Below are positions 4,250-6,801 of a stretch of DNA of 64,000 nucleotides, in pieces (positions within the stretch are counted from its first letter, which is position 1; each line of letters starts with the position of its first letter). The position numbers were made by a program, and so were the translations under genes. This DNA is from Corynebacterium tuberculostearicum. Lineage in GTDB: Bacteria; Actinomycetota; Actinomycetes; Mycobacteriales; Mycobacteriaceae. The notes under the pieces are model-generated. The model had not been told where the DNA came from. It saw only the letters and a list, made by a program, of their open reading frames with translations, and ran no database searches. The stretch is from positions 2,389,173 through 2,453,172 of the forward strand of contig NZ_JACBZL010000001.1 in NCBI RefSeq assembly GCF_013408445.1. The letters run 5' to 3'.

Positions 4250-4942
4250 GTGGCGCCCAAGATTTTGGTTGTCGATGACGATCCGGCTATCTCAGAGATG
4301 CTGACCATTGTGCTCGAGTCCGAGGGGCTCAAGCCCATTCCGGTCATGGACGGCAATGACGCCGTGCCTGCCTTTGAGCAGCACGAGCCGGATCTCATCC
4401 TGCTGGACCTCATGCTTCCGGGCATGAACGGCGTAGATATTTGCCGTGCCATCCGCCGTGAATCCTCCGTGCCCATCGTTATGCTGACCGCCAAGACCGA
4501 TACGGTTGATGTGGTACTCGGCCTTGAATCCGGCGCGGATGATTACATCACCAAGCCATTCAAGCCCAAGGAGCTCATCGCCCGAATCCGTGCGCGCCTG
4601 CGTCGCACCGATTCTGCGGAATCTGAAATTCTGGAGGTTGCGGACCTTGTCATTGATGTGCCGGAGCATACCGTGCGCCGCACCGATGGCACCGAGCTGA
4701 ACCTGACCCCGCTGGAATTCGACCTGCTGCTGGAAATGGCACGCCGCCCCGGCCAGGTACACACGCGTGAATCGCTGTTGGAATCCGTGTGGGGCTATCG
4801 CAATGCTTCTGATACACGCTTGGTAAACGTGCACGTCCAGCGCCTACGTGCCAAGATCGAGCACGATCCGGAAGACCCGCAGATTGTGCTGACCGTGCGC
4901 GGCGTGGGGTATAAGACCGGCAAGGCCGGCGCCGGGGAGTAA
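4250..4942 (+). CDS. mtrA: Two-component response regulator MtrA
   Basis: OmpR-class regulator of 230 aa. The receiver has acidic residues 9-11 (VVDDD), phosphorylation site Asp53 in LLDLMLPG, and the conserved Lys in TKPFKPKELIARIRARLRR. The C-terminal winged helix ends in VRGVGYKTG. In corynebacteria MtrA controls cell-wall, osmotic-stress and division genes and in mycobacteria it is essential. The GTG start follows AGGAG. It is co-transcribed with tmk upstream and mtrB/lpqB downstream. Confidence 0.96.
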   Translation: MAPKILVVDDDPAISEMLTIVLESEGLKPIPVMDGNDAVPAFEQHEPDLILLDLMLPGMNGVDICRAIRRESSVPIVMLTAKTDTVDVVLGLESGADDYITKPFKPKELIARIRARLRRTDSAESEILEVADLVIDVPEHTVRRTDGTELNLTPLEFDLLLEMARRPGQVHTRESLLESVWGYRNASDTRLVNVHVQRLRAKIEHDPEDPQIVLTVRGVGYKTGKAGAGE

Positions 4943-4956
4943 GGATCATCGGCATC

Positions 4957-6801
4957 ATTGAGCGGCTAAGGCGCATTCGAGACGCCTTCATTACAACGTG
5001 GCGCACCTCTTTGCAGGCGCGCGTCATTGGCATGATCTTGGTCGCTTCCTCGGTGGTCATGATCATCTTGGCCTATGCGTTGGTGTCCGTGCTCACCCAG
5101 CGCCTGGTCAGCCAGAAAGAAGACGTGGCCCAACAGGAGCTGGAGCGCGCCCGCACGGCCGTGGAACAGCAGATCGATGCCACCAGTTCTGCTAACTCCG
5201 TCCAGGTACGTATTAACTCTGCGCGTGCTGCGTTGGGCCAGCTCTCCGCCCAGCCGGGCGATACCCAGACGGTTTATGAGCCAGTCATCGTGGTGGAAAA
5301 CCAGGATGGCTCTGTTACCACTTCGCCCGAGGATTTCCCGGTGCCGGATCAGCTGCGGGAGATGGTGGATCAAGGCCAGATTGCGCAGCAGTATGTCCCG
5401 GCGCCGCGCGAAAATGGCGAATACTACAACGCCCTGCTCGTAGGCACGCCTACCGATACCGATATTCCCCATACCCAGGTCTACCTGGCGCTGTCCATGG
5501 AATCGGAAGAATCCACCATGGCGTTGATGCGCGGCCTGCTCTCAGCGGCCGGCGTAGTGGTCGTGGTGTTGCTGGTGGGCATTGCCTGGCTGGCCACCCA
5601 GCAGGTTATTACGCCGATTCGCTCGGCCTCTCGAATTGCACAGCGCTTGGCGGCGGGGCATTTGAAGGAGCGCATGGCCGTCGATAGCGATGATGAAATG
5701 GGTCGCTTGGCCGCGTCCTTCAATAACATGGCCGATAAGCTGTCCTCCCAAATTGCGCAGCTGGAGGAGTACGGCGATTTGCAGCGGCAGTTTACTTCTG
5801 ACGTCTCCCATGAGCTGCGCACCCCATTGACCACCGTGCGCATGGCCGCGGACATGATTGAGGCTGAGAGCGATAGCCTGCCGTACGGCGCCCAGCGCGC
5901 TTCCCGCTTGATGTCGAGCGAACTCGACCGCTTCGAGGAATTGCTCGCGGACTTGCTGGAGATTTCTCGCCACGATGCCGGTGTGGCGGATTTGTCTACG
6001 GCAGCCATTGATCTGCGCTCGTGTGTGGAGGCCGCCTACGGGCAGGTGGAGCATTTGGCCCGCGAGCTTGACGTGGAGGTCCAGCTCAACCTGCCGGAGG
6101 AGCGCATCGGAGTCGAGGCCGATTCCCGCCGCCTTGAGCGCATCTTGCGCAACCTTCTGGCCAATGCCATTGACCACTCGGAGGGCAATCCAGTGGCGGT
6201 GGACGTCGCAGCCACGGACACTGCGGTGGGCGTTACCGTTACGGACCACGGCGTGGGCTTAAAACCTGGCCAGGAAGAGCTGGTATTCAACCGCTTCTGG
6301 CGTGCGGATTCCTCCCGCAAACGCCATTCTGGCGGCACCGGTTTGGGCCTGGCTATCGCCCGCGAGGATGCCGTTTTGCACGGCGGCACGCTAGATGCCA
6401 CCGGCTACGAGGGATTTGGTTCTCGCTTCCGCCTCATTATTCCACGCACCCCGAATACCGAGGTGGGCGAGGCTCCTATCGCTGTGGAGATTCCCGGCGC
6501 ACCCGTCACCAGCACTGCGGATGGTAGTGAGCTGCCGGAATCTCGACCAGAACCCGATGCTGAAGCTACAGAAGCACAGGATACTGGCGCCGCCGAGCCG
6601 GACGCTGGGCCTGCCTCTGCAACGCCGGCTATTTCATCGGGCATGAGCTCGCCGCACGTCGAGAAGAGTGACAGGGGCACTGATGGTGAGACGGAGGGCG
6701 ATGGCATCCTCTGGCCTTCGGAACGCGAACTTAACCGCGGCGCGGCCGCCCCGGACAGGCGCGCCTATAAGGCCCCGGACTTTGAGGGCAGGAGGAAATA
6801 A
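4957..6801 (+). CDS. mtrB: Sensor histidine kinase MtrB (non-standard start codon)
   Basis: Membrane kinase partner of MtrA. It has TM1 (GMILVASSVVMIILAYALVSVL), an extracellular domain, TM2 (LLSAAGVVVVVLLVGIAWLA), HAMP, the HisKA site DVSHELRTPLTTVR, and an HATPase with RNLLANAIDHS and GTGLGLAIA. A ~110-residue Pro/Glu-rich cytoplasmic tail follows. The first ATG/GTG/TTG in frame is TTG 5011, but it falls inside a stretch (WRTSLQARVIG) that resembles the mycobacterial MtrB juxtamembrane sequence and has no ribosome site. The frame is open upstream to the TAA at 4912-4914, with only ATC/ATT as possible starts. ATT 4957 or ATC 4954 lies 8-11 bases after AAGGA (4941-4945). The start given is my best estimate. 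Confidence 0.9.
   Translation: MERLRRIRDAFITTWRTSLQARVIGMILVASSVVMIILAYALVSVLTQRLVSQKEDVAQQELERARTAVEQQIDATSSANSVQVRINSARAALGQLSAQPGDTQTVYEPVIVVENQDGSVTTSPEDFPVPDQLREMVDQGQIAQQYVPAPRENGEYYNALLVGTPTDTDIPHTQVYLALSMESEESTMALMRGLLSAAGVVVVVLLVGIAWLATQQVITPIRSASRIAQRLAAGHLKERMAVDSDDEMGRLAASFNNMADKLSSQIAQLEEYGDLQRQFTSDVSHELRTPLTTVRMAADMIEAESDSLPYGAQRASRLMSSELDRFEELLADLLEISRHDAGVADLSTAAIDLRSCVEAAYGQVEHLARELDVEVQLNLPEERIGVEADSRRLERILRNLLANAIDHSEGNPVAVDVAATDTAVGVTVTDHGVGLKPGQEELVFNRFWRADSSRKRHSGGTGLGLAIAREDAVLHGGTLDATGYEGFGSRFRLIIPRTPNTEVGEAPIAVEIPGAPVTSTADGSELPESRPEPDAEATEAQDTGAAEPDAGPASATPAISSGMSSPHVEKSDRGTDGETEGDGILWPSERELNRGAAAPDRRAYKAPDFEGRRK

Follow-up and report, generated by a model that had tools for sequence, protein, structure and literature searches.

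MtrAB is a conserved envelope regulator of the Actinobacteria. Two genes with weak start codons are the closest described parallels to its kinase gene mtrB. The infC gene starts at ATT in Escherichia coli and at ATC in Streptomyces, and is repressed by initiation factor 3 (IF3) (PMC5472188). The Streptomyces sigR gene starts at GTC, is repressed by IF3, and a codon change upset the system; the evidence for this start came from Edman sequencing, scanning with stop codons, Western blots and IF3 variants (PMC5472188). GTC is reported to be conserved in sigR of Streptomyces, with no evidence reported of GTC use for sigR in other genera (PMC5472188). Here, the start of mtrB was analysed in a stretch of 64,000 nucleotides from Corynebacterium tuberculostearicum (the window, to which all positions refer). 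The gene very probably starts at a near-cognate codon just past the mtrA stop codon, at ATC 4954 or ATC 4948, less likely at ATT 4957. A non-standard AUC or AUU start upstream of TTG 5011 had been proposed in a preliminary description and was supported by the comparison across species. The same comparison supports a translated leader that has no canonical start, with a Shine-Dalgarno site located at the stop of mtrA or past it.

With infC the locus would share a near-cognate AUN codon behind a Shine-Dalgarno site. Thirty infC loci of Corynebacterium were taken, and all 28 readable ones had ATC (26) or ATT (2) behind AGGAG at one fixed place; 17 of the 28 were without any in-frame canonical codon upstream. 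The infC of the source genome (L336, G000:C1 about 449800) carried ATC behind AGGAG at the presumed start, L337-L365 being the other loci of the genus. Whereas the infC codon is fixed, that of mtrB drifts among ATT, ATC, ATA and CTG. Unlike infC, mtrB follows the stop codon of the gene it is paired with, and the factor that would repress it is not its own product. The likeness of sigR to mtrB lies in a regulator within a two-gene regulatory operon, a non-canonical start, a dose that matters relative to the partner and a database start that was mis-annotated. However, the weak gene is the first of the pair for sigR and the second in mtrA-mtrB, and the sigR start was shown experimentally, whereas the mtrB start rests on comparison.

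The mtrB gene was matched in 240 of 242 Corynebacterium genomes. Of these, 208 were taken and 205 parsed, L233, L242 and L251 being left out because the script found no W motif, so that the counts refer to 205 species; the 34 genomes beyond the 208 also stand outside them. A set of 77 loci from named genomes, which overlaps with these species, was reduced in the same way by L107 and L113 to 75. A canonical start was scored as lacking when the frame had no ATG, GTG or TTG after its last stop and ahead of the conserved tryptophan (W) of the motif WRTSLQ. This was observed in 74 of the 205 species and in 32 of the 75 named loci. Thus the alignment of mtrB starts across related species, suggested earlier as a check, gave a positive result. 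Controls were searched in the named loci in the same manner, upstream of an early conserved anchor: a canonical codon was absent from 1 of 74 mtrA, 0 of 71 tmk and 0 of 76 lpqB genes, together 1 of 221. The sole control case, mtrA of L039, lies at a contig end where bases 1-75 mismatch the mtrA start of the relatives, probably an assembly end. The difference between mtrB (74/205) and the controls (1/221) had a Fisher p of about 3e-26, uncorrected for relatedness. Some 17 codons without the three canonical triplets have an estimated chance of about 0.4, so that the gap in the window is not rare by itself. The unusual points are the resemblance of the stretch to conserved coding sequence and the repeated lack of these triplets in 74 species. 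No ATG, GTG or TTG of mtrB was found to be usable as the start of the conserved coding region. An error of sequencing or assembly that erased a normal start codon has a negligible probability. Nothing was found in its favour and the same lack was present in 12 of the 12 closest species and across the genus; the preliminary description had named such an error as a refutation, and the agreement of other assemblies ruled it out.

All 74 species fall into a short-leader class of 160 species, in which W lies at most 100 nucleotides from the mtrA stop. The other 45 species have 105-777 nucleotides between mtrA stop and W; L264-L269 and L274, among others, were observed with 189-777 nucleotides to the W motif, that is with long N-terminal extensions or spacers. 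On a tree made quickly with FastTree from concatenated parts of MtrA and MtrB, the presence or lack of a canonical codon requires at least 29 changes. On the same quick tree, the alternation between near-cognate and canonical best-placed codons in the short-leader species requires 12. The trait is therefore widespread and labile, and not a single event. In other genera of the family the gene order is the same and mtrB starts at the mtrA stop, but most of the loci sampled differ by a GTGA overlap. Among the 22 best matches outside the genus, taken from 113 such genomes and not a random draw, none was without a canonical codon, and 20 had a GTG overlapping the TGA stop of mtrA. With TAA or TAG as the stop codon of mtrA in 195 of the 205 corynebacteria, such an overlap is gone there. 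The non-canonical state is probably derived within the genus.

The leader before WRTSLQ was compared in 24 disjoint pairs among the 74 species. Over the 14 codons before W, 35, 24 and 78 changes fell on codon positions 1, 2 and 3, a third-position excess (78 of 137 changes, p about 1e-8). The far half of the leader (-42 to -22) presented 18, 13 and 32 changes (p about 0.003). The stretch directly before the aligned start had 4, 6 and 3 changes in 7 pairs and revealed no bias, numbers too few to weigh much. Within the 12-species clade of the window, four codons varied after ATC 4954, each of them synonymously; the two codons that varied in the 12 nucleotides upstream of it did so non-synonymously. 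The net charge of the leader was positive in 66 of the 74 species. These observations bear on an alternative in which mtrB starts at TTG 5011 (MQARVIGM...) and the open stretch upstream is an untranslated spacer that arose by chance. This TTG is canonical, would leave the first membrane segment whole and begins database records such as P0016 and P0019 (592 amino acids). Against it stand the third-position excess and the synonymous changes in the leader ahead of it, a Shine-Dalgarno pairing of -2.6 kcal/mol at the long spacing of 12, and the codons found at its place in the 205 species: TTG occurred in 48 only, the others having CTG (73), CTC (30), ATC (29), CTT (10) or further codons. The NCBI model of MtrB (NF040691) begins upstream, at W, so that a start at TTG 5011 would drop WRTS and truncate the match to this curated model. 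Seven of the 74 species have their first canonical codon as far as 18-20 residues past W, inside the first membrane helix if the positions of the C. glutamicum review carry over. A start at TTG 5011 is thus improbable in our view.

For the near-cognate start we compared codon choice behind the Shine-Dalgarno site across the genus, with seven codons allowed and a spacing of 5-11, a limit set by us. In the 160 short-leader species the best-placed codon was CTG (51), ATT (43), ATC (36), ATA (12), TTG (9), GTG (8) or ATG (1). In the controls ATG was best-placed in 55 of 76 lpqB, 34 of 71 tmk and 28 of 74 mtrA genes. The near absence of ATG is a clearer point than the codon tally. A canonical codon with a pairing of -4 kcal/mol or better was present for mtrB in 28 of the 160 short-leader species, for mtrA in 52 of 74, for tmk in 33 of 71 and for lpqB in 71 of 76 loci. 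Fifteen codons before W, at the aligned position, ATT (40), CTG (23), ATC (22) or ATA (2) stood in 87 of 159 short-leader species, next to TTG in 7, GTG in 3 and ATG in none. In the 74 species without a canonical codon, two of which offered no credible start, the median pairing was -7.75 kcal/mol, and the chosen codon lay a median of 6 nucleotides past the mtrA stop (range 3-45). By eye, the best-placed codon of L133 (G069), L154 (G041), L227, L223, L209 and L216 looks like GTT, a possible GUU start.

The same data permit another mechanism with a near-cognate start in common: terminating ribosomes, held at the Shine-Dalgarno site, would reinitiate on any NUN codon in the P site, and there would be no selection for weak starts. 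The closeness of the chosen codon to the mtrA stop agrees with this mechanism, as does the occurrence of CTG, ATT, ATC, ATA, TTG and GTG, with a possible GTT in G041 and G069, at the start spot. Free choice of the codon is at odds with the near lack of ATG (1 of 160 best-placed, 0 of 159 aligned codons), which an isoleucine or leucine constraint could explain. Unselective reinitiation of this kind appears rather unlikely.

Several observations weigh against the near-cognate start. The trait is not uniform: 86 of the 160 short-leader species carry some canonical codon before W, among them the 28 with a canonical codon paired at -4 kcal/mol or better. By the same measure, near-cognate codons were picked in the controls as well, in 19 of 74 mtrA, 36 of 71 tmk and 5 of 76 lpqB genes. 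With a noisy measure and a spacing limit of our own choice, codon assignments for single species are unsure. The aligned position is hydrophobic also where other codons stand (CTT 10, CTC 7), positions -33, -24 and -12 are rich in the same codons, and ATT or ATC at the aligned position is in part plain isoleucine, an amino-acid preference. G041 and G069, two of the 74, had no ATT, ATC, ATA or CTG within 11-24 codons before W and only GTT by eye. Constraint on the leader is looser than on the sequence that follows W, and in four of the seven clades examined the non-synonymous share of varied leader codons was high (7/9, 8/12, 7/9 and 13/17); the remaining three had 0/4, 1/5 and 1/2. Because a choice by the Shine-Dalgarno site only is noisy in the controls, the claim of a near-cognate start rests on the missing canonical codons and the codon-position bias.

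In the window, the open mtrB frame spans 4915-6801 with its terminal stop included, and the stop before it is at 4912. The first ATG, GTG or TTG in this frame is TTG 5011, the second ATG 5032; the reported absence of these codons between the stop at 4912-4914 and TTG 5011 was confirmed on the sequence. The in-frame ATC 4945, 4948 and 4954 and ATT 4957 were all present as described, although they are not the only ones, with further in-frame ATT at 4975 and 4990. The AAGGA described at 4941-4945 was found, and a stronger site, GGGGAG, had gone unmentioned. The features of the start region are:

4934..4939, + strand: GGGGAG, Shine-Dalgarno site within the end of mtrA, -7.4 kcal/mol, aligned spacing 7 to ATC 4948
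4941..4945, + strand: AAGGA, second Shine-Dalgarno-like site, overlapping the mtrA stop, -5.7 kcal/mol, spacing 6 to ATC 4954 and 9 to ATT 4957
4948..4950, + strand: ATC, candidate start with the best-placed Shine-Dalgarno site, ATC in 12 of the 12 closest species
4954..4956, + strand: ATC, candidate start favoured by the alignment, 15 codons before W 4999
4957..4959, + strand: ATT, less likely candidate start, CTG, CTA or TTT at the aligned place in sister clades
4954..4998, + strand: basic leader, presumed start and 14 codons ahead of the conserved W, with codon variation in relatives
5011..5013, + strand: TTG, earliest canonical codon of the frame, improbable as the start, weak pairing and long spacing, inside WRTSLQ
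5032..5034, + strand: ATG, first codon of the database cluster with the protein of the window (P0001, 589 amino acids), by our reading near the edge of the first membrane segment

The pairing to the 3' end of the 16S rRNA was predicted for the codons of the window, with spacings of 4-12 scanned. A Shine-Dalgarno site was present at a working distance ahead of two near-cognate codons: ATC 4948 (-7.4 kcal/mol, spacing 7) and ATC 4954 (-5.7 kcal/mol, spacing 6). ATT 4957 reached -5.7 kcal/mol at spacing 9, and for ATG 5032 no pairing was obtained. At the place of ATC 4954, ten of the 12 closest species had ATC and two ATT. The earlier proposal of an ATC or ATT start thus holds for the codon class, but ATT 4957 is less likely than either ATC, because the alignment favours ATC 4954 and the placement of the Shine-Dalgarno site ATC 4948. 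In our judgement ATC 4954 has close to an even chance to be the start, ATC 4948 a somewhat lower one, and ATT 4957 a small one. A start at ATT 4975, where the records P0002 and P0004 begin with M, was considered and rejected, as the Shine-Dalgarno pairing was weak and the codons genus-wide at this position (-24) were mixed. Folding of the RNA across 4900-5010 revealed no signal (z -1.05).

The gene order is that of the MtrB family, with mtrA directly 5' and lpqB directly 3' of mtrB:

4250..4942, + strand: mtrA, response regulator MtrA, GTG start, TAA stop at 4940-4942
4954..6801, + strand: mtrB, encoding the sensor histidine kinase MtrB, coordinates for a start at ATC 4954, NCBIfam NF040691
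6804..8537, + strand: lpqB, accessory lipoprotein of the MtrAB system and control gene, NCBIfam NF010141 (627 bits, cut-off 602)

The mtrA product matched NCBIfam NF040689 (MtrAB_MtrA) with 372 bits against a cut-off of 300. The mtrB product matched NF040691 (MtrAB_MtrB) with 601 bits against a cut-off of 450, profile positions 1-505 of 507 aligning to residues 16-511. Counted from ATC 4954, profile position 1 is residue 16, which is W 4999. The nearest named locus was L037 of C. tuberculostearicum, with 99% identity across MtrB. Readthrough or a frameshift at the mtrA stop would yield some MtrA-MtrB fusion, and no start codon would be needed. In agreement with this, mtrB lies in the frame of mtrA (offset 0) in 44 of the 74 species. 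The offset is 1 in 9 and 2 in 21 species, 2 also in the window, and differs between the close relatives L007 (offset 2) and L016 (offset 0). A fixed slip site was not seen by eye, no search with a tool having been made. As the offset varies even among close relatives, readthrough or a frameshift from mtrA is highly improbable. In a side observation, G147, G095 and G020 had open frames of 1104-1119 amino acids that contain a single TAA within the part matching MtrB; mtrB may here continue into the gene that follows.

Database records of MtrB begin variously at ATG 5032, at TTG 5011 or where the window has ATT 4975, and the W motif was near the start in 24 of 120 proteins among the matches listed. 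No report of the mtrB start codon was found in titles and abstract openings on Corynebacterium mtrB, MtrAB and near-cognate or non-canonical starts among the matches listed, and a search for Corynebacterium with AUU start codon had no literature match. Genome G065 (locus L366) is presumably C. glutamicum ATCC 13032. The MtrB of C. glutamicum is given as a protein of 503 amino acids phosphorylated at His 266 in a review (PMC3353115). Mapped on G065, these values make a CTG within WRTSLQ the first codon, and 19 codons further upstream there is an ATT preceded by AAGGGG. The size in print would thus already seem to require a start that is not canonical. The available part of a further paper on MtrB (PMC8334368) held nothing about its start.

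In the mechanism we propose, a Shine-Dalgarno site overlapping the mtrA stop would hold the near-cognate start of mtrB. Ribosomes finishing mtrA, or entering at this site, would put formylmethionyl-tRNA on the mismatched codon, and IF3 would reject most of these complexes, as for infC. MtrB would then be made in small amounts relative to MtrA, its translation would be coupled to that of mtrA, and its amount would rise if the activity of IF3 fell. A weak start could plausibly hold down the kinase in comparison with MtrA, in the manner of infC. The weak codons appear to have persisted, although a single change often would give ATG. Tentatively, across much of the genus selection may keep the start within the class of AUU, AUC, AUA and CUG and exclude AUG while the exact codon drifts; the dose of MtrB, and with it a conserved envelope-stress system, would thus be wired to the level of IF3 and, by the Shine-Dalgarno site at the stop, to the translation of mtrA.

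If a near-cognate start is correct for much of this large genus, many MtrB proteins in databases have lost some of the cytoplasmic terminus that precedes the first membrane segment, and constructs based on such entries may be truncated. Further genes of this sort might be found simply, by looking through a genus for conserved coding leaders in which canonical codons are missing. A two-component kinase would join the short list, with infC and sigR, of genes with a regulatory non-canonical start, and start-codon control of the ratio of kinase to regulator would become testable in C. glutamicum.

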